From: a virus
Reading direction: 5' to 3' (one strand)
Virus record (IMG/VR): IMGVR_UViG_3300030117_003765
Span: 1-32,899 of that record
DNA: 32,899 bases
Shown here: piece by piece, positions 3,772-32,753 of the stretch
Position numbering within the stretch: the first letter of the stretch is position 1
Layout: every line of letters starts with the position of its first letter
The notes under the pieces: model-generated
Database searches by the model: none
What the model was told of the DNA's origin: nothing
Seen by the model: the letters and a program-made list of their open reading frames with translations, nothing else
Translations under genes and position numbers: made by a program

Positions 3772-4125
3772 TTACTGTGCAGCTTGTAGTTCTTCTATTA
3801 AAGTTGCTTTCTTTTTTCTTCTATCAAGTTCTATACCCATTGTACGACCATGTTCTTCTAACTGAATTTTAGTCATACTATGTAAATCTACAGTTTCAGG
3901 TTCTTCAGTTGGAACTTCTTCAGCTGCTCCCCCGGAATCTTCATCTATTACTGGTGTGTCTTCTACAACAGGACTTGGCATTTCTCCTGTATATTCAGCA
4001 CATCCTTCTTGTAAACAAAGTAACCCTAGTTCATGTGAAACTTCTTTTGGTTCACCTGCTTTTAAAAAAATACTTGCGCCCCAAGTAGAGGCTACATATT
4101 TGTCTTCATTAGAAATAATTTTCAC
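3772..4125 (-). CDS. Small capsid-associated protein with C-terminal HeH/SAP-like helices
   Basis: A 117-residue protein in three parts. A compact N-terminal region (residues 1-45) contains SHELGLLCLQEGCAEYTGE. A low-complexity acidic, Pro/Glu-rich linker covers about residues 46-80. A C-terminal helix-turn-helix-like pair (MTKIQLEEHGRTMGIELD then RRKKKATLIEELQAA) resembles HeH/LEM or SAP motifs found in phage head proteins. It lies just downstream of the major capsid gene across a strong hairpin that may reduce its transcription. A decoration, head-completion or nucleic-acid-contact role is plausible but inferred. Confidence 0.65.
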   Translation of the reverse strand: MKIISNEDKYVASTWGASIFLKAGEPKEVSHELGLLCLQEGCAEYTGEMPSPVVEDTPVIDEDSGGAAEEVPTEEPETVDLHSMTKIQLEEHGRTMGIELDRRKKKATLIEELQAAQ

Positions 4126-4144
4126 TTTTTAACTCCTTATTAAA

Positions 4145-16842: not shown

Positions 16843-17001
16843 ATGCAACCACATAGTATTGTCGCTGGTTTAACAACCGCACTTTGGATTTTAATCGAGC
16901 TTATTCAGTTTGGATACATGGCTTATTTATATTGGAGGAACCAACAAAATGATATTGATAGGAATATTCAGCGCGCTAGGTCTGCTACTACTTGCGCTTA
17001 A
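16843..17001 (+). CDS. Small membrane protein, 52 residues
   Basis: ATG at 16843 has TAGGAG about 6 nt upstream and follows the previous stop by one base. The 52-residue product has one hydrophobic helix (ALWILIELIQFGYMAYLYW) with a short polar N-terminus and a basic, Arg/Asn-rich C-terminal tail likely to be cytoplasmic. It overlaps the next gene by 53 nt. Together with its neighbours it makes a set of three consecutive small membrane proteins. Function unknown. Confidence 0.55.
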   Translation: MQPHSIVAGLTTALWILIELIQFGYMAYLYWRNQQNDIDRNIQRARSATTCA

Positions 17002-18685: not shown

Positions 18686-18689
18686 AAGT

Positions 18690-18814
18690 TTAACTCTCTT
18701 GACGAAAAGCCCACCAATTGAGCCTAGCTATAGCAAAATCGGTTTAAACCTTGCCAGGCTACCGACAAACGAGAGGGAGATAGAGAGTTAATTTAACATG
18801 CCAAGGAGTGGCAT
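18690..18814 (+). ncRNA. Structured RNA with H-type pseudoknot and GGA-loop hairpin
   Basis: An outer 9-bp stem (TTAACTCTC 18690-18698 with GAGAGTTAA 18783-18791) encloses a hairpin, AGCCT/AGGCT (18721-18725 with 18756-18760) plus GCAA/TTGC. Its loop sequence TCGGT (18739-18743) can pair with ACCGA just downstream (18761-18765), giving an H-type pseudoknot. A second hairpin, ATGCCA/TGGCAT (18798-18814), presents AGGAG in its 5-nt loop, the arrangement CsrA-type proteins bind. No open frame with a start and ribosome-binding site is seen. No riboswitch class was recognised. A 3'-UTR-derived regulatory RNA or phage decoy is possible. Confidence 0.55.
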
Positions 18815-18818
18815 TAGT

Positions 18819-18861
18819 ATAGCCCAAGTTTACAGTCTCCTGTCTTGGGCTATGCGTTTTT
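18819..18861 (+). terminator. Rho-independent terminator of the block E operon
   Basis: ATAGCCCAAG (18819-18828) pairs perfectly with CTTGGGCTAT (18844-18853), with a further ACAG/CTGT pairing inside the loop, and is followed by five T residues at 18857-18861. It lies between the plus-strand operon and the convergent gene ending at 18865, and the T-run marks it as acting on plus-strand transcripts. Confidence 0.82.
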
Positions 18862-19352: not shown

Positions 19353-19374
19353 GTTTAATTAACGGAGTAATTAA

Positions 19375-19590
19375 ATGACCCCACCTAAATATGTATATGT
19401 TAAGCGCAACCCTGTGCACCCTTATACTTACAACAACCCAGATGATTTACCATTTATACAATGGAAACTAGTTAAAATATCAACTGCTTATTCAATGTAC
19501 ACCAGCAAACAGATTGGTTGGGAACGTGCAAAACGTTCTGAATATGAAGACTGGTGTACCAAAATGAAACAATTCAAGGAGGAATTGTAA
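19375..19590 (+). CDS. Small basic protein ahead of DNA polymerase
   Basis: A 71-residue protein with CGGAG about 8 nt before the ATG, beginning MTPPKYVYVKRNPVHPYTYN. It is Pro/Tyr/Lys-rich in the first third and helical afterwards (SKQIGWERAKRSEYEDW). Its stop overlaps the DNA polymerase ATG by one base (TAATG), so translation is coupled to the replication operon. No family is recognised. Confidence 0.65.
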   Translation: MTPPKYVYVKRNPVHPYTYNNPDDLPFIQWKLVKISTAYSMYTSKQIGWERAKRSEYEDWCTKMKQFKEEL

Positions 19591-21398
19591 TGCAAAAAAT
19601 TTATTTAGATTTCGAAACTTACTACGATGTTGAAGTAACTTTATCAAAAATGTCTACAGTACAATATATCAATCACCCAGATTTCAAAGTGTGGGGCGTG
19701 GGAATAAAAGTAGATGACGGAGAAACAGAATGGTTTTCAGAAGATGAAACCCCTTCGGTTTTGGAGCAAATTAATTGGGCTAATACAGCCTTGGTTTGCC
19801 ACAACACTCTGTTTGACGCTTATATTCTTACACAATACTTCGGGCACAGGCCAGCGTATTATTACGACACTGCGGCGATGAGCCGTGGTCTGTACCCGAA
19901 TTCGTCTGCACGCTTAAAAGATTGTTGTAAACGGGAGTTTCCTAATGATGAAACTATGCGTAAGGGAGAAGAACTTGTAAATGCCAAAGGCATACGAGAC
20001 CTTGACCCAGAGCTTGACGCACAAATTGGAGGCTACTGTATACAAGATGTAGATTTAACTTGTGCCCTGTTTAAATCTTATACACAATCTTATCCTAAGT
20101 CAGAATTAGATTTAATTGATTTAACTGTACGTATGTTTGTAGAGCCTAAATTAATTTTAGATAGAGCTAAGTTAATTTCTTATAAAAATAAAATAGCAAC
20201 TCGTACAAAAGAAGCTATTAGCTCATCAGGTTGTACAAGAGAAATACTTGCGTCATCACAAAAATTTGCTAATCATTTAGAAAGTCTTGGTATTACAGTT
20301 CCTACAAAAAAAAGCCCAACAACTGGTAAGCAAATACCTGCATTTGGTAAAAACGACAGTGCTTACATACAAATGTGTGCTATGTACCCTGAGCATAATA
20401 ATTTGTGGGAAGCGCGTAAATTAGTAAAATCACGCATTGAAGAAACTAGAGCGCAACGTTTTATTGATTCGTGCAACCCTGACGGTACTTTTAGTATACC
20501 TTTGCGTTATTACGCTGCACATACTGGGCGATTTGGTGGCTCTGATAAACTTAACTTACAAAATTTACCCAGGGGCTCTGAATTACGTACAGCAATACAG
20601 GCACCAGAGGGACAAAAGTTGTTTATTGCAGATTTATCTAACATTGAAGCACGTATGCTTGCATGGTTAGCAAAAGAATCTGATTTACTTGACGCTTTTG
20701 CAACTGGCAGAGATGTATATTGTGAATTTGCTAGTCAAATATATGGTCGTACAATTACCAAAGATGACAAACTTGAAAGGTATGTAGGTAAAACTGCTAT
20801 ATTAGGTTTGGGTTATGGTATGGGACACCAAAGATTCCAAGACACTTTAAAAACAGGCTCACCTTCAGTTGAAGTATCTGAAATGGTAGCTAAAAATATT
20901 GTTTTACAGTACAGAGGCATGTACCCGAACATACCAATGTTGTGGTCAAAAATGAAAGACGCTTTATTTCTTATGTTACACAACAACAGGGTTCAATATG
21001 GCCCTTTGTCTATTGAAAAAAGTAAAATTGTTTTGCCTAATCAAATGTCATTGAAGTATCCTACTTTAAGTTTTGACTCAAACGAATTTACATACCAACA
21101 ACAATATGGAACTAGTTACTTTCCAAAAAGAACGCGTACTCATGGGCCTATGCTTACAGAAAATGTAGTGCAAGCTCTTGCTAGAATTGTAATTACTGAC
21201 CAAATGTTAGACATACAAACTCTACCACAGGTAGATATTGTAATGCAGGTACACGATGAAATTATTGCAATTGGAACTGACATTGATTCAAATGGTACAA
21301 TGGAACAGATACTAAACATTATGCGTACGCCACCAGAATGGTGTAGTGATTTACCACTCGATGCAGAGGGAGGCATAAGTCAAATATATGACAAATAA
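19590..21398 (+). CDS. DNA polymerase, family A with 3'-5' exonuclease
   Basis: A 602-residue replicative polymerase with no 5'-nuclease domain, short for a Pol I relative and typical of phages. Exonuclease motifs: Asp7-Phe-Glu9, Asn72 to Asp76 (NTLFD) and YCIQD at 149-153. Polymerase motif A (IADLSNIEAR, Asp348), motif B (KTAILGLGYG, Lys401) and motif C (QVHDE, 553-557) are intact. The start is ATG at 19590 with AAGGAGG about 7 nt upstream; an in-frame start at 19554 lies inside the preceding gene and is rejected. It is the core of the replication operon. The csrA-like gene overlaps its 3' end by 11 nt. Confidence 0.96.
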   Translation: MQKIYLDFETYYDVEVTLSKMSTVQYINHPDFKVWGVGIKVDDGETEWFSEDETPSVLEQINWANTALVCHNTLFDAYILTQYFGHRPAYYYDTAAMSRGLYPNSSARLKDCCKREFPNDETMRKGEELVNAKGIRDLDPELDAQIGGYCIQDVDLTCALFKSYTQSYPKSELDLIDLTVRMFVEPKLILDRAKLISYKNKIATRTKEAISSSGCTREILASSQKFANHLESLGITVPTKKSPTTGKQIPAFGKNDSAYIQMCAMYPEHNNLWEARKLVKSRIEETRAQRFIDSCNPDGTFSIPLRYYAAHTGRFGGSDKLNLQNLPRGSELRTAIQAPEGQKLFIADLSNIEARMLAWLAKESDLLDAFATGRDVYCEFASQIYGRTITKDDKLERYVGKTAILGLGYGMGHQRFQDTLKTGSPSVEVSEMVAKNIVLQYRGMYPNIPMLWSKMKDALFLMLHNNRVQYGPLSIEKSKIVLPNQMSLKYPTLSFDSNEFTYQQQYGTSYFPKRTRTHGPMLTENVVQALARIVITDQMLDIQTLPQVDIVMQVHDEIIAIGTDIDSNGTMEQILNIMRTPPEWCSDLPLDAEGGISQIYDK

Positions 21399-21567
21399 AA
21401 ATTTAGTCCTTACTCGAAAAAAAGGCACAAAAATAATTATATATAATGACAAAGGAACTATATGTAACATTACAGTAGTTGAAACTTCTTCAGCTCAATG
21501 TAAGTTAGCTTTTCAAGCTGACGCAAACATTCGTATCGATAGAGAAGAAATATTTAACGAGGAATAA
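21388..21567 (+). CDS. csrA: CsrA-family RNA-binding regulator
   Basis: A 59-residue protein beginning MTNKNLVLTRKKGTKIII and ending with IRIDREEIFNEE. The pairs LTR.G near the N-terminus and REEI near the C-terminus, with alternating hydrophobic strands between, are the signature of CsrA/RsmA, a dimeric regulator that binds GGA in mRNA hairpin loops. Length matches the family (about 55-65 residues). The key Arg of the REEI motif and the LTR Arg are present. It overlaps the polymerase by 11 nt and precedes the primase by 2 nt. Phage CsrA could alter host carbon metabolism or regulate phage messages. Confidence 0.8.
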   Translation: MTNKNLVLTRKKGTKIIIYNDKGTICNITVVETSSAQCKLAFQADANIRIDREEIFNEE

Positions 21568-21569
21568 AC

Positions 21570-24029
21570 ATGGAAATAACATTCTTACAAGCTAAATGTC
21601 CTTTAGCAAAAGAAATAACTAAAGACGGCACTAAACCTTACCCTTTAGTAAAAAAGTTTACATCTAAACACTATGAAGTAGATACTGACAAAAAAGGTTT
21701 TAATAAATTTTATAAATTACTTACAGACCAAGCTGCAGCTGGAGCTTGTTTGCACAAAGGTTTATTAAAACAACCTTTACATAATGAGTCTAGAGCTCTT
21801 ATGTCCGACAGAAATGCTCCTACAGAGTTACTTGTAATAGACATAGACGGACTTCCGTACAAAGCTGGAAATGTTGGAATAGACACTGTAGCAGAACAAA
21901 TAGTTTTACAATTACCTGATGTATTTCAGGGAGTTTCGTATGTAGCCCAAGCCTCTGCGTCTTTAGGATTTAAAAAAGATACAGTATCTTTACACCTATT
22001 CTTTTTTATGGACATGCCTGTGCACCCTAAAACATTAAAAGATTGGTTGCGTTTACTTAATTTTGACACAACTTTTTTGGCAGAAAATATTAAACTTTCT
22101 GCTAATGGTCACAGCTTATCTTATGTTTTAGACCCTAGTGTCGCTGACAATAGTAAACTTATTTATATAGCGCCACCTACTTTTACTGACGTACAAGACC
22201 CTTTATCAGGTTCAAGATTTGTAAAAGTCGAGCGTAGTTCGCCAACCCTTGAAATCTCTTCATGTTTACATAATGTTAACCCAGAAAGAATTCATGCATT
22301 AAGCCTTACAATTAAAAATAATTTAAGAAAAAAAGCAGACTTACCAAAGCGTAATGAAAAACTTTCTACAGTTAACGTAGCTGGAGAGTTACAAGAAGTA
22401 TTACAAAACCCTGATAAAATGACTATACAAATTAGTAGAGTTGCATCGCCATATGTAAATTGTAATATCAATGGAGGCGATAGCGGAGCTTACTTCTTTT
22501 TATTAACCAACCCTCATTACATGTACAACTTCAAAGGAGAACCTATTTGGGAAATAGAAAAAGCAGACCCTGACTTTTACAAAAGCATTTTTGAAATATT
22601 TGCTGACCAAATAGATTCTAAAGCTAAAACTAAACCTATAGCTTTAAGAGATTTTACAACTGACACATATTTTAATGGTATTTATGATGAAACAATTAAT
22701 CAATTCACAGAAGAATTTCCACTTACCCCCACAACTAAAAACTCTGTTAATGACTTTATGCGTTCTCATGGGCGTCCTAATATGGACTATATTCCTGACG
22801 CTAGGGTTGTTTTTGACCCTACTAATGACAAAGGTGTTCAACTTGAAGAAGTACCTTACTACGTAAATCTGTTTAGAAAAACAGAATACATGTTAGACGC
22901 TAATAAAAATGTAAAAGAATTAGAATATGGCACTGCTATAGAAATGCAAAAAATTGTGCCTAACTTCTATAAATTAGTTATGCATGTGCTCGGTAATGGA
23001 AAACCAGAGTTTGAGCATTTTGTAAATTGGTTAGCTTATATATACCAAAACAAACGAAAAGCTATGACTGCTTGGATATTTACAGGCATTCCAGGCACTG
23101 GTAAAGGTTTGTTTGTACACAAAGTCCTTAAACCTCTATTTGGAGAACAACAAACACCAATGCGAGCACTAGAAAATATAGAAGAACAATTTAACTTGTA
23201 CATGAGACAAGCTTTGTTTCTTGTAGTTGACGAGTTTCGCATGGCTGATTCTGGTAATACACTTAGAATGGCTGACAAGCTTAAACATCAAATAACAGAA
23301 CCAACTCTTACTGTACGTGCTATGCGTTCAAATCAGATTGAAATGCCTTCATTTACTAACTTTTTATTCCTTACAAACAGAGGAGACGCAGTCAAGATAG
23401 AAGACAGCGATAGAAGATATAATGTGGCACCTAGACAAGAAGTTAAGATAGAGGAGGCACACAAAGACTTATTGGAAGATTTGAGTGTGTTACAAGCCGA
23501 ACTTTACATTCTTGCAGGGATATTAGAAAAATTTCAGGTGAATGAACGTATGGCACACACAGCATTAGAAAACGACGCGAAGAAAGAAATGAAAGAAGTT
23601 TCTATGTCTGTGTTAGAAGAATTTGCAAATGCAGTTCGTATGCGTAATTTAGAATATTTTACAGAAATATTAGATATACCACTTACAAATACTTTTGACG
23701 CTGGTGGCATAAGTACGGCTCAAAGATATATAAAAGATTGGCTTTCTACTGTAGGACAAGAAATTGTTATACCAATGACACATCTTAAAATGATATATGA
23801 TGTTATGACAGACAGTAGAAATAAATTATCTAATAGAGATTTTGCAAAAGCTATGTCTAGATTAAACGTCAAAACTTCTCGTAAACGCGTAAGCAAAGAC
23901 AGAACAGCTAGCGCTCCTCGTGGAGTTGTATTAGTTTGGAAACTAGATAATAATATTAAAGACGATTTAATAAAAGAACACTTTAATGACCGAGACTTTG
24001 AACTCTTTAACACAAGAAAAGCGACCTGA
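21570..24029 (+). CDS. Primase-helicase: AEP-type primase plus SF3 helicase
   Basis: An 819-residue two-domain replication protein. The N-terminal archaeo-eukaryotic-primase-like domain shows VIDIDG (Asp91, Asp93) and a later SLHLFFFMD (His142), fitting the catalytic DxD and sxH motifs. The C-terminal helicase has Walker A GIPGTGKG at about residues 505-512, Walker B LFLVVDE at about 549-555 and an SF3-type FLFLTNRGDAVKI segment. The layout resembles NrS-1-like phage primase-polymerases. It should prime and unwind at the origin for the family A polymerase. It overlaps the nuclease gene by 44 nt. Confidence 0.88.
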   Translation: MEITFLQAKCPLAKEITKDGTKPYPLVKKFTSKHYEVDTDKKGFNKFYKLLTDQAAAGACLHKGLLKQPLHNESRALMSDRNAPTELLVIDIDGLPYKAGNVGIDTVAEQIVLQLPDVFQGVSYVAQASASLGFKKDTVSLHLFFFMDMPVHPKTLKDWLRLLNFDTTFLAENIKLSANGHSLSYVLDPSVADNSKLIYIAPPTFTDVQDPLSGSRFVKVERSSPTLEISSCLHNVNPERIHALSLTIKNNLRKKADLPKRNEKLSTVNVAGELQEVLQNPDKMTIQISRVASPYVNCNINGGDSGAYFFLLTNPHYMYNFKGEPIWEIEKADPDFYKSIFEIFADQIDSKAKTKPIALRDFTTDTYFNGIYDETINQFTEEFPLTPTTKNSVNDFMRSHGRPNMDYIPDARVVFDPTNDKGVQLEEVPYYVNLFRKTEYMLDANKNVKELEYGTAIEMQKIVPNFYKLVMHVLGNGKPEFEHFVNWLAYIYQNKRKAMTAWIFTGIPGTGKGLFVHKVLKPLFGEQQTPMRALENIEEQFNLYMRQALFLVVDEFRMADSGNTLRMADKLKHQITEPTLTVRAMRSNQIEMPSFTNFLFLTNRGDAVKIEDSDRRYNVAPRQEVKIEEAHKDLLEDLSVLQAELYILAGILEKFQVNERMAHTALENDAKKEMKEVSMSVLEEFANAVRMRNLEYFTEILDIPLTNTFDAGGISTAQRYIKDWLSTVGQEIVIPMTHLKMIYDVMTDSRNKLSNRDFAKAMSRLNVKTSRKRVSKDRTASAPRGVVLVWKLDNNIKDDLIKEHFNDRDFELFNTRKAT

Positions 24030-27730: not shown

Positions 27731-27803
27731 TTTATTAATTTTTGCAGGTATGTATACAGTATTAACAGCAATTGCCATAATATGGTGGCAATATATTAAA
27801 TAA
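27723..27803 (+). CDS. Membrane micropeptide of 26 residues
   Basis: ATG at 27723 has AGGAG 5-6 nt upstream and overlaps the nuclease end by 8 nt. The 26-residue product beginning MIDLLIFAGMYTVLTAIAII is a single hydrophobic helix with a Trp-Trp interface and a basic end. The next gene's ribosome-binding site (AAGGAG) begins at its stop. Function unknown; a tiny membrane peptide like this could modify host membrane proteins. Confidence 0.55.
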   Translation: MIDLLIFAGMYTVLTAIAIIWWQYIK

Positions 27804-27812
27804 GGAGTATTA

Positions 27813-28040
27813 ATGAAAGACATGGTCAACTCACCTCCACATTACAACACAGGAAACGTAGAATGTATTGTGGCAATTCAAGAAAGTATGACACCCGAGG
27901 CATTTAGAGGTTACTTAAAAGGTAACATTCAAAAGTATATTTGGCGTTATGAAAACAAAAAAGGCCTTGAAGACCTAAAAAAAGCTCAATGGTACCTAAA
28001 TAAACTCATAAAAACCCTAGAAAAAACTAAAATTGTATAA
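27813..28040 (+). CDS. DUF3310 family protein
   Basis: A 75-residue protein. NSPPHYNTGNVECIVAIQE and GYLKGNIQKYIWRYENKKG are the hallmark motifs of DUF3310, sometimes labelled nucleotide kinase-like in phages, though the biochemical role is not settled. The ribosome-binding site is AAGGAG 6 nt upstream. It is the last gene of the replication operon, before a convergent gene-free gap. Confidence 0.85.
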   Translation: MKDMVNSPPHYNTGNVECIVAIQESMTPEAFRGYLKGNIQKYIWRYENKKGLEDLKKAQWYLNKLIKTLEKTKIV

Positions 28041-29279: not shown

Positions 29280-31031
29280 TTATATAGTATACACTTTTAG
29301 GGCTTTTTGTTTACCTTTTACCTTAATTTTTCCGTGCAAAGAACATTTGTCCACTTTTTGAGCTGTACGTTCTCCAACTAATATATCTACACCAGCTTCT
29401 TTAGTTGCTGATTCTAATCTTGCAGCAGTATTAACAGCGTCTCCTATAGCAGAATAATCAAACCTCGTGTCACTTCCCATATTACCGACTACTGCCTCAC
29501 CTGTATTTACACCTATGCCTATTGCTATTGGTTCGGGAAGTTCTTTTTGTAACATGTGAATAGCTGTACGCATATCTTCGGCACAGGCGACAGCACGTTG
29601 CTCATGTTCATCTACTAATAGGGGGGAATTAAAGATGGCCATACATGCGTCGCCTATGAACTTATCAACCATACCTCCATGGGCTTGTATACATTTAACT
29701 TGTTCAGTCAACACTTTATTCATTATATCTGTAACTTGCTCAGGTTCTAGTTTTTCAGATAAATTTGTAAATCCTCTTACATCAGTAAACAAAAAAGTAC
29801 ACGTACGTTTTTCTCCACCTAATTTTAATAAACTAGGGTCTTTTTGTAGTTGAGCCACTTGTCTTGGGTCAAGGTAGTGTTCAAACTGTTTTTTAATTTG
29901 CTGTCTAAGTTTATATTGTTCTCTAAAACGCAACCATAGTTCGGGTATAGATATAAATATGGTTGATAATATACTATAACTAACATCTATAAGCATGTTG
30001 TTTATAACAAAGTAATAACCGCTACCTGCTGTTATTGCAAGTACACTAGGTATGCTAACGGCCGTAACAGTCACCGTACATGTACGTATTAACAAAACTG
30101 TAATTGTAAGAACAGATATTAAAATTAAAAATTCATAAAAAATAGCAGGCCCAGGTACTTGTGGTACATCAACCGTCATACTTTCTGCAAGAGCTGCTTG
30201 CACCTGATGTGGGTATTTTAAACCGTCAGGCGTAGCTATTTGCGGCATAACTCCTTTTGCACTTACCCCAATAAATACAAACCTATCTTTTACATCCATT
30301 TCTTGTAAAGTAGTGGTAGGGGTATCAATCCACGATACCCATCTTCTTCCTAATGTATCTACTGGAATTTGTGCATAGTTAGGTAGAGTAAGTTCTACTA
30401 TTTGGCCCTGTTCTGATTTAATAATATAAGTATCAGAGCTAGATACTATTTTCATTACTTCTATACCAAAAGAAGGTGTCCAACCATTTGGTGTTTGTAA
30501 TAATAAAGGTAGTCTTCTTACTAACTTATCTACTTCGGTACGTGCTACTGCTAAACCTTCACTAGTTGCATTTGCAAGTTTAGGTGTATTTTGCACCACC
30601 CCATTAGATTCTATAGCTTGTATAGGTATTCCATCACCTAATATAACAGTGCCTGTTGTAGGAGGATAATTAGCGCTGTCATTTTCAAACATTGCAATAA
30701 CGCTTGGTGTGCCCGATAGCACGTATGCAAAATCATCATCTCCTCCAAATCTATCTTTTTGAGGAAAGGCGACCACCCATCCAACTCCCCAAGCCCCTGC
30801 ATCTATGAGGTCTAAGTGAAGTTGCGCAAGGTCTTGGCGTGGAAATGGCCAGCCGCCTGACATGGAAACATCTTCTTCTGTAATGTCTAATGTAACAAAC
30901 ATGCCACTTGGTTCTGGTGTTTGTACAAGAGCATCAAAAGTTTTTAATTTAAGGGTTTCAACTACTTCCCAGTTAAATAACAAGGGTACACATAGTATAG
31001 GTATACTAAGCAATGAAATCCATTTCTTCAT
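29280..31031 (-). CDS. CHASE2-domain class III adenylate cyclase
   Basis: A 583-residue membrane enzyme that would make cAMP. An N-terminal membrane helix (about residues 4-20), a large extracytoplasmic CHASE2 sensor (about 25-290), three helices (about 298-365) and a C-terminal cyclase domain. Metal Asp417 (FTDVRGFTN) and Asp461 (KFIGDA), adenine-type determinants Lys457 and Asp525 (FDYSAIGD), and Asn534/Arg538 (NTAARLE) are all present, so it looks catalytically competent. Its ATG overlaps the FecR-like stop by 4 nt and its stop abuts the 81-residue phage gene. Confidence 0.92.
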   Translation of the reverse strand: MKKWISLLSIPILCVPLLFNWEVVETLKLKTFDALVQTPEPSGMFVTLDITEEDVSMSGGWPFPRQDLAQLHLDLIDAGAWGVGWVVAFPQKDRFGGDDDFAYVLSGTPSVIAMFENDSANYPPTTGTVILGDGIPIQAIESNGVVQNTPKLANATSEGLAVARTEVDKLVRRLPLLLQTPNGWTPSFGIEVMKIVSSSDTYIIKSEQGQIVELTLPNYAQIPVDTLGRRWVSWIDTPTTTLQEMDVKDRFVFIGVSAKGVMPQIATPDGLKYPHQVQAALAESMTVDVPQVPGPAIFYEFLILISVLTITVLLIRTCTVTVTAVSIPSVLAITAGSGYYFVINNMLIDVSYSILSTIFISIPELWLRFREQYKLRQQIKKQFEHYLDPRQVAQLQKDPSLLKLGGEKRTCTFLFTDVRGFTNLSEKLEPEQVTDIMNKVLTEQVKCIQAHGGMVDKFIGDACMAIFNSPLLVDEHEQRAVACAEDMRTAIHMLQKELPEPIAIGIGVNTGEAVVGNMGSDTRFDYSAIGDAVNTAARLESATKEAGVDILVGERTAQKVDKCSLHGKIKVKGKQKALKVYTI

Positions 31032-32212
31032 CCTGACCCCTGTGTAATTGTTATGGTAGAGTTTCCTCCACCGTTTACTACAATCTGTTGGTATTTACCG
31101 TCCTGTATTAAAATAATAGTGTAACCTTGGGCACTATTAACCGTCAACTGAGCGTTCTGGTTAACTTTTCTTTGAAAAGCTATTTGTTCTCCTTGTAGTA
31201 AAGTTATTATCTGTGTTTCTAAATCTTGTCCTATTTCTGTGCCTTGTATTGAAGTGCCTACAGTCAATTTTTTAGTATCTAATTCATCTATTTCTTCTAT
31301 TATTGCTAGTAAATCTTCAAAGAAATTTACATCTAAAAAGTTTATATCAAGCTCTGTAAACTCCAAAGTATCTTCAGCTAAATAATCTTGTTCTAGCTCA
31401 TTAAACTCTAAATAATCAATATCTAATATTGCTCCACTATCTGCTACAGACGTTGTGGATGATTCTGTGGATAACTTTTGTTCGTCTGGAGGCGTAACAA
31501 TAAGCATGTTATCTATTACATCTAAAGTTAAATCAAGTATTACGGGTTTAGTAGGCGCAGTTTCCCATACTTCTACAGTAGTAGCTTGATAAGGTTTATT
31601 AAGAGTAACACTACCTGTTGCAGTAGTTACAAGTATCTCTCCACTAGATATACCGTTTTCGTCTGGCAATAATATTATTAGACTACGACCTAACTCATCT
31701 ACGGTGCAAGTAAAATCTGTTCCCCTAATCGCTATATCAGCTGTAGGTGTAGATAGCCGTATCCTACTTTTATCTATTCGATTAAATTTACTACTAACAA
31801 ATCTAGCTGTGCCACTAGCAAACTGTAAAGCCATTTCTCCTTTTGAAGGGTCAGGGTCAAATACATATTTAGTAATTACAAGTTTAGAGTGTTCAGTTAG
31901 TCGTACGATAGAGTCGTCTAAAAAAGTAATACCTACACGGCCCGTAGTAGTACGAACATCGTCCATTTGTTGGATACCAAAGTCTAACTCAGCCCCATAG
32001 GGCTTATCTCGTATTACTTCAGCAGAGCCGTTTAGCTCAGATATGTCTCCAATATTAGCAGCTTGTGCTTGTACCGCCGTCGTTTTGAACAACGCACACA
32101 GTACCATTGTTGCCGCTAGACATAATCTTAAGCCAATCCCTAGCCAATGTAGATGATTGCGTAATGTTAAAAGTCCTGCTGTTGCCTGTTTGGTCAAGAT
32201 AGAAATATCCAT
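31028..32212 (-). CDS. Exported FecR-domain protein
   Basis: A protein of about 394 residues with a hydrophobic export segment (LRLCLAATMVLCALF, cleavage probably after VQAQA). A FecR-type domain follows (AEVIRDKPYGAELDFG; GRVGITFLDDSIVRLTEHSK; LQFASGTARFVSSKF; TPTADIAIRGTDF), as in periplasmic proteins paired with CHASE2 cyclases. An acidic linker rich in Leu/Glu/Asp and a C-terminal Gln/Asn/Gly-rich part with curlin-like flavour end it. The start is uncertain: ATG 32212 overlaps the curlin-like gene by 158 nt, and ATG 32107 would shorten the signal and overlap by 53 nt; a TTG at 32233 is less likely. Confidence 0.85.
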   Translation of the reverse strand: MDISILTKQATAGLLTLRNHLHWLGIGLRLCLAATMVLCALFKTTAVQAQAANIGDISELNGSAEVIRDKPYGAELDFGIQQMDDVRTTTGRVGITFLDDSIVRLTEHSKLVITKYVFDPDPSKGEMALQFASGTARFVSSKFNRIDKSRIRLSTPTADIAIRGTDFTCTVDELGRSLIILLPDENGISSGEILVTTATGSVTLNKPYQATTVEVWETAPTKPVILDLTLDVIDNMLIVTPPDEQKLSTESSTTSVADSGAILDIDYLEFNELEQDYLAEDTLEFTELDINFLDVNFFEDLLAIIEEIDELDTKKLTVGTSIQGTEIGQDLETQIITLLQGEQIAFQRKVNQNAQLTVNSAQGYTIILIQDGKYQQIVVNGGGNSTITITQGSG

Positions 32213-32753
32213 TTTGATATCCACTTCCGTCAAATGTTATTGAGTTAGAGTCCCCATCGACATCTACATAAGATGTTCCTAGGTCATAATCAATGTCAAA
32301 ATCAAACGAGTTGCTATCTCCATTAATTATCCAGTCTAAGTCAAGTGTCGAAGCTAAAGCATTAGTACCGACGTTTAAATTAAAGTCGTTACTAGAACCA
32401 GTTACGTCTACATTGTAGTTACCTGAATCTGCACCATATGTATTAGTTGGGTCTACTTGTATATCAAATACGTTGCTATCTCCATCAAATTCAAAAAAAC
32501 CTGTAATGCTATCTCCATAAATATCACCTAAGAATTTGTTTGAACTACCTATTTGATTTATATCTAAAGTAAGATTTAAACCGTCAAGGTCAAGCGCGGT
32601 CATAGTACCACTAACAGCGTTTAGTCCACCAATAATGTTAGACGAACCTAACTGTTCTATGTCTATGTTTGCGTTATTACCGGATTGGTCAATGTAAACT
32701 TCGTTATCAGCATACAAAAAACCAACTAATAGTAAGGGTAAAAGTTTTCTCAT
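32055..32753 (-). CDS. Exported curlin-repeat protein (CsgA/CsgB-like)
   Basis: A 232-residue secreted protein with a short Sec signal (MRKLLPLLLVGFLYA) and about eight repeats built round G-S/D-S-N followed by a hydrophobic strand. Examples are YIDQSGNNANIDIEQLGSSN, DINQIGSSNKF, GDSNVFDI, GSSNDFNL, GDSNSFDF, GDSNSITF and DQTGNSRTFNITQ. The Q-x-G-x-x-N spacing fits the curlin repeat, the amyloid-fibre unit of curli. The C-terminus has two Cys. It starts in the 4-nt overlap with the CsgG-like stop and overlaps the FecR gene, so the module is translated together. Confidence 0.85.
   Translation of the reverse strand: MRKLLPLLLVGFLYADNEVYIDQSGNNANIDIEQLGSSNIIGGLNAVSGTMTALDLDGLNLTLDINQIGSSNKFLGDIYGDSITGFFEFDGDSNVFDIQVDPTNTYGADSGNYNVDVTGSSNDFNLNVGTNALASTLDLDWIINGDSNSFDFDIDYDLGTSYVDVDGDSNSITFDGSGYQNGYFYLDQTGNSRTFNITQSSTLARDWLKIMSSGNNGTVCVVQNDGGTSTSC

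Follow-up and report, generated by a model that had tools for sequence, protein, structure and literature searches.

A CsrA-like gene in the replication operon of a marine phage lineage and CsrA-type hairpins at the phages' own translation starts

The window analysed here is a 32.9-kb virus record from IMG/VR (32,899 nucleotides), whose full-size relatives are about 57-64 kb long. Its genes for a portal, a terminase, a major head protein and an SU10-type adaptor identify it as a tailed phage. The plus strand carries a family A DNA polymerase gene (19590-21398; PF00476, E 4.5e-28; phrog_17), for which the alignment of relatives gives a conserved ATG at 19590 as the start, the longest ORF opening at 19554. 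Directly 5' of it lies a gene for a protein of 71 aa (19375-19590, plus strand), which belongs to a family with 29 distinct start regions among the relatives. The original prediction placed a 59-codon CsrA gene between polymerase and primase, overlapping the former, and the ORF is exactly as claimed: 59 codons and a stop at 21388-21567 on the plus strand (translation MTNKNLVLTRKKGTKIIIYNDKGTICNITVVETSSAQCKLAFQADANIRIDREEIFNEE), whose 5' end shares 11 nt (21388-21398) with the 3' end of the polymerase gene. Two nucleotides past its stop the operon continues with a primase/helicase-like gene (21570-24029, plus strand; phrog_24712, E 8.5e-162; phrog_1156 DNA primase, E 4e-21; DUF5906). The claimed location inside a replication operon is thus borne out, with the polymerase gene on the 5' side and the primase-like gene on the 3' side. 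The csrA start was also considered as a site of autoregulation: its Shine-Dalgarno (SD) sequence falls within the polymerase codons for a conserved DAEGG, and hairpins there are inconsistent (5/50), giving no regular operator.

The protein matches the Pfam CsrA profile (PF02599; E 2.6e-11; 43.7 bits, gathering threshold 27), a significant hit that bears out the proposed homology, and PHROG 9500, 'CsrA-like regulator' (E 2.1e-9). Its scores against the NCBIfam csrA equivalogs (NF002469/TIGR00202) are far under the cut-offs, at 33.7 versus 73 and 29.1 versus 70.1, which marks it as a diverged member of the family rather than an orthologue-grade host CsrA. When the lineage profile was searched, full-length CsrA/RsmE chains were matched at E 7e-11 to 2e-8. 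Across 61 distinct sequences L6, L8, T9, R10, K/R11, K39, A44, I50, D51, R52 and E54 are invariant or conservative; they align with the RNA-contacting positions of CsrA, the equivalents of L4, T5, R6, R7 (K), A36, V42 (I), R44 and E46 being kept in this way. In E. coli numbering, L4, T5, R6, R7, V42, R44 and E46 are the RNA-contacting positions of CsrA strands 1 and 5. C26 of the window protein is a lineage-specific cysteine, present in 60/61 sequences and absent from the bacterial CsrA proteins aligned here; a structural or redox role is possible.

The AlphaFold2 monomer (pLDDT 86.6, pTM 0.66) is confident in its central strands. Foldseek against the PDB ranked CsrA, RsmA or RsmE chains in all of places 1-14 (TMq 0.59-0.70; E just 0.03-0.3, the chain being very short), so that the CsrA fold named in the original prediction is recovered at the level of a predicted monomer. 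A structure search of BFVD was topped by phage CsrA models. In the predicted monomer, strands 1 and 5 find no partner within the chain, which is what one would expect if the protein dimerises.

We evaluated how firmly the gene is tied to this position. A polymerase search gave 80 loci, and in 78/78 with an intact 3' flank the csrA ORF comes straight after the polymerase gene; the remaining two loci, cut at the relevant end, were left out of this count, and in one of them csrA is present at the record's other end. The overlap of the two genes is 11 nt in 50 cases, 4 nt in 22 and 1 nt in 7, with the window counted. As a check free of polymerase bias, 12 longer records were selected by their terminase; csrA was found in 5/5 with a complete polymerase end, the other seven being without that stretch. 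Divergence of csrA follows that of the polymerase, with a Mantel rho of 0.80 where 500 permutations reached at most 0.13; dN/dS has a median of 0.30 and exceeds 1 in no pair. Given this position in 78/78 loci, the co-divergence with the polymerase and the low dN/dS, csrA is not a chance ORF. It belongs to the stable core of one large lineage and is not a recent acquisition from a host. The lineage consists of abundant marine phages, with 420 terminase relatives confirmed in IMG/VR.

Outside this lineage csrA was absent from the remoter phages with a related polymerase (KPP25, RHph_TM3_14A, Rollin and phiA008). A degenerate csrA in the polymerase-primase interval of phiA008 was considered and rejected, as the interval holds a 62-aa cysteine-containing ORF and no CsrA. 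One record, L142 (G021:34402-36225), has a single in-frame TAA inside its polymerase match, which is either a sequencing error or a broken gene. A separate CsrA gene, with 50% identity to that of the window, lies at L086:379-633, one gene 5' of a single-strand DNA-binding protein gene and near an integrase on a Granulosicoccaceae MAG contig; this is probably a prophage with csrA in its replication/recombination module.

To look for apparent targets, start regions were folded and scored for a GGA in a hairpin loop of the minimum free energy structure, against conditional shuffles in which the GGA and the start codon were fixed. In the lineage, 30.3% (231/763) and 25.2% (115/456) of GGA-containing starts have the GGA in such a loop, 2.1-2.2 times the shuffles. 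In contrast, the csrA-lacking marine controls gave 7.9% (HTVC023P-like phages, GC 35%) and 7.5% (S-CBS2-like phages), 0.60 times the shuffles, one of these two groups being similar in GC to the lineage. No csrA was found in any of the 11 full control records checked. For mid-gene GGAs, the lineage and the control groups did not differ.

The excess is specific in its geometry. Among perfect stems, loops of 5 nt (86 versus 21 expected) and 6 nt (89 versus 22) are four-fold enriched, and other lengths less than two-fold. With Watson-Crick stems of at least 5 bp, AGGAX loops (one nucleotide before the GGA and one after) number 34 versus 1.7 expected, and ANGGAX loops (two before, one after) 25 versus 1.2. 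Smaller rises were seen for ANGGA pentaloops (13 versus 2.2) and for loops with four nucleotides before and one after (10 versus 1.2); only the AGGAX and ANGGAX registers rise about 20-fold, the others not or much less. When these two registers are pooled as A(N)GGAX at the same minimum stem length, lineage starts carry 59 sites versus 3.1 expected (18.7-fold), whereas the controls are flat (2 versus 1.0, 0 versus 1.2 and 0 versus 0.2). An A precedes the GGA in 32/34 AGGAX loops, and C-G is the closing pair in 37/70. The enriched loop and closing pair are those defined for RsmE, which recognises an A(N)GGAX loop above a C-G closing pair and ranks the ANGGAX hexaloop best, with the pentaloop that lacks N weaker and loops with two extra nucleotides weaker too (PMC4005645).

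De-duplicated to one start per protein family, 37.3/262 starts have a site versus 8.35 expected (sd 1.9); gene calling was by a simple script, and related phages are only partly independent even after this step. Stem sequence varies while the loop is kept, with 31 different 5-bp stems in 106 starts. Starts of the Gp157-like gene, for example, read UUUUAC[AGGAG]GUAAAA, UUCUAC[AGGAG]GUAGGA and AAAAU[AAGGAG]AUUUU (loops bracketed here and below). By strand, sites occur at 67/623 starts on the polymerase strand versus 7/249 on the structural strand. The original prediction had counted the AAGGAG/GGAG ribosome-binding sites of phage mRNAs among the possible targets; on the A(N)GGAX excess, this appears to be the best-supported role, for this lineage. 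Eight unrelated csrA-bearing phages (F116, YMC11/07/P54, Vibrio phages D279 and 1.232.O, Pavtok, LASTA, Parlo and PhiXhv-12) show no such excess, so start hairpins are not a rule for all csrA-bearing phages, and the self-repressor role set out below is proposed for this lineage only.

One hairpin, CACAC[AGGAG]GUGUG, recurs at the SDs of various small genes and looks as though an operator had been copied as a module. It is found at starts of one gene family of about 100 aa (L101, L131, L149, L167, L168, L170, L173 and L185), and similar hairpins occur in L146, L152 and L187.

Of the two strongest start sites in the window, both putative CsrA operators, the first covers the polymerase SD (19569-19588, plus strand) as ACAAUUC[AAGGAG]GAAUUGU, with 7 bp and an ANGGAX hexaloop. 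We rejected this hairpin as a lineage-wide feature, since it is confined to a subclade. The second, at the 71-aa gene, spans both SD and start codon (19353-19376, plus strand; GUUUAAUUA[ACGGAG]UAAUUAAAU), again with an ANGGAX hexaloop, and part of the start codon lies in its stem; it is conserved in relatives, where two pairs are changed on both sides. Upstream of the homologue of this gene, L060 and L062 keep the stem of GCAUUC[AGGAU]GAAUGU and have lost the GGA from the loop (AAGAA, AUGAA); they are natural loss-of-site variants, useful as binding controls. Putative weaker operators lie on the plus strand at the SD of the gene starting at 16949 (16932-16944; UUGG[AGGAA]CCAA) and at that of the DUF3310 gene at 27813-28040 (27799-27811; AAUA[AGGAG]UAUU), whose relatives have stronger start hairpins than the window. 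On the minus strand a possible weak operator (4128-4144; UUUAAU[AAGGA]GUUAAA) precedes the late-side gene 3772-4125 and shows the weaker ANGGA pentaloop register. With automatic gene calls, two starts in the window have a hairpin whose stem reaches 5 bp or longer, versus 1.0 expected, a third being added by hand. Given so few in the window alone, the case for targets is a statistical one over the lineage; individual operators are evolutionarily unstable.

Upstream of these genes lies a conserved non-coding element of 64 nt (18798-18861, plus strand), aligned in 45 sequences including the window. Its first part (18798-18814) is a hairpin, AUGCCA[AGGAG]UGGCAU, which is a strong A(N)GGAX motif away from any plausible start; this is followed by a terminator-like hairpin of 12 bp (18817-18855) and a T run (18857-18861). 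The element covaries: 98.3% of cells are paired, six pairs show changes in both partners, and 0/500 shuffles do as well. In L024 three stem pairs are changed together and the AGGAG loop is retained. The loop is not absolutely kept, as L008, L013 and L028 carry AAGAG in place of AGGAG. No Rfam family was found in the window or in two relatives. The CsrB/RsmZ sponge RNAs offer a partial parallel, as the phage element likewise has a CsrA-type loop outside any SD, but with one GGA hairpin, not many. A CsrB-like sponge was also sought by GGA density and rejected: no dense GGA cluster was found, and instead of multiple GGA stem-loops per RNA there were 2-7 GGAs per region, mostly without a hairpin. 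The element, lying 5' of the polymerase gene, may adjust the level of free CsrA, either as a decoy or as a target at the operon end. Farther 5' is another conserved non-coding module (18686-18785, plus strand; AAGUUU..ACUCUCUUGA ... GAGAGGGAGAUAGAGAGUU). In relatives such as L014, L020, L025 and L027 variable inserts split the two modules, and the insert of L027 contains a 128-codon open frame.

The original prediction also suggested that csrA may be connected to curli and cAMP genes of the window, and this link is not supported. The cyclase is real: on the minus strand, 29280-31031 encodes a class III adenylate/guanylate cyclase with a CHASE2 sensor (PF05226, E 4.5e-25; PF00211, E 3.6e-22), adjoining a gene for a FecR-domain protein (31028-32233); such a membrane-sensor cyclase is unusual on a phage. 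The curlin-repeat match, in the nearby 32055-32753, is weak and below its cut-off (E 0.0062; 16.9 versus 20.7 bits). No A(N)GGAX hairpin is present at the start of either gene, and we therefore rejected a connection with csrA.

These data allow us to propose a function for the gene. Since many of the phage's own early genes begin with a CsrA-type hairpin, the protein most likely lowers phage genes rather than (only) those of the host. We consider it probable that the CsrA of this lineage is a self-directed translational repressor of its own, mostly early genes, comparable in role to RegA. In this model CsrA would be made from the replication operon along with the polymerase and would accumulate. 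The presumed dimer would bind A(N)GGAX loops that present the SD of mostly early, non-structural genes, with the polymerase and its upstream neighbour among the targets in the window. Bound CsrA would then block access of the ribosome, and early expression would be limited or shut off as infection proceeds. A full phage-owned Csr circuit, with a polymerase-locked CsrA, fast-turnover SD operators and a titrating non-coding RNA that together time the early-to-late switch, is a more tentative extension, which we think rather more likely to be wrong than right. As the apparent targets are legible in the genome, in vitro work with short RNAs and the 59-aa protein could test the function directly.

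Phage csrA is not new in itself. It was already known on 30 phages (PMC7366521), on many in another survey (PMC8450108) and on Vibrio phage J26 (PMC12038007). In coliphage PTXU04 knock-down of a csrA homologue gave smaller plaques; until that study, as described there, the part played by CsrA in phage life cycles had gone untested (PMC11879866). The gene is usually read as a tool of host manipulation or as an anti-CRISPR; what is new here is that the SD GGAs of a lineage sit in CsrA-type hairpins. The usual reading, proposed for phage CsrA homologues generally (PMC8450108, PMC7366521), would have the protein act mainly on host mRNAs for carbon metabolism, motility and biofilm, or on cas transcripts. 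The conserved RNA-contact residues would permit binding to host GGA hairpins, but host-directed action gives no reason to expect A(N)GGAX hairpins at the starts of phage genes in this lineage alone, and as the main function we consider it unlikely, although it can coexist with self-repression. The redirection of host carbon metabolism raised in the original prediction is not required to account for the data.

The hairpins might instead serve the CsrA of the host, through which the phage would sense host physiology, its own csrA adding to or competing with that signal. The loop is the general CsrA/RsmE motif, so host CsrA could bind it. Pseudomonas and Aeromonas are genera that have CsrA/RsmA. 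Nevertheless, no sites were found in KPP25 (Pseudomonas) or phiA008 (Aeromonas), csrA-lacking phages that we scanned, nor was there an excess in the csrA-bearing F116 and YMC11/07/P54, whose hosts also come from CsrA-bearing genera. This makes host CsrA as the sole user unlikely, and with the sites going along with the phage's own conserved csrA, we regard the explanation as very improbable. An origin of the hairpins unrelated to csrA (loop presentation of the SD, the operator of another protein, or translational coupling) gains something from the correlation resting on one lineage but is hardly tenable, given that only AGGAX and ANGGAX rise about 20-fold when every register would expose the SD, that csrA-lacking marine phages avoid GGA loops, and that coupling hairpins normally hold the SD in the stem, not the loop.

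Self-repression by the phage CsrA thus remains our preferred reading, and it can be set against known systems. The protein resembles CsrA, RsmA and RsmE (PF02599; 2jpp, 1vpz, 5dmb, 2bti) in its whole-domain profile match and predicted beta fold, in its LTR(R/K) and (V/I)xREE motifs, and in its apparent targets, A(N)GGAX hairpins closed by C-G. It differs in having about four extra residues in the loop ahead of the third strand, A(D/N/K/S) in place of APK and an invariant D before the R44 equivalent, and in that its apparent targets are the starts of phage genes instead of host genes. CsrA-family genes of other phages (PHROG 9500; F116, H66, Vibrio phages, Parlo/Pavtok/LASTA, PTXU04 and vB_VneS_J26) are in many cases close to host CsrA, unlike the one described here, and in none of the neighbourhoods inspected does csrA overlap a DNA polymerase gene. 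In the literature searched, which covered few subscription journals, we found no account of a phage whose CsrA has operators at the phage's own genes.

For the arrangement of the sites, a close bacterial parallel is the flaA leader of Campylobacter jejuni, where CsrA is matched with ANGGA stem-loops, one of them over the ribosome-binding site, with compensatory changes, and where an mRNA leader can titrate CsrA (PMC4894983). That system is a bacterial flagellin circuit with FliW, unlike the phage case; no FliW was found among the window proteins scanned. A global bacterial regulator has apparently been recruited here as a phage's own repressor, with targets readable from the genome as dozens of recognisable operators, and the lineage offers a natural collection of evolved CsrA sites. 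In this respect a close phage counterpart is RegA of T4-like phages, likewise a small repressor encoded in the core replication cluster, which acts at the initiation regions of about 30 mRNAs, many of them early (PMC3014915). As in the RegA class, csrA lies in the replication cluster beside the DNA polymerase gene, at 78/78 loci, and many early-gene starts carry operators, as defined by sequence and structure. The two proteins have unrelated folds, however, and whereas RegA sites are unstructured A+U-rich stretches around the AUG, those proposed here are GGA hairpin loops over the SD.
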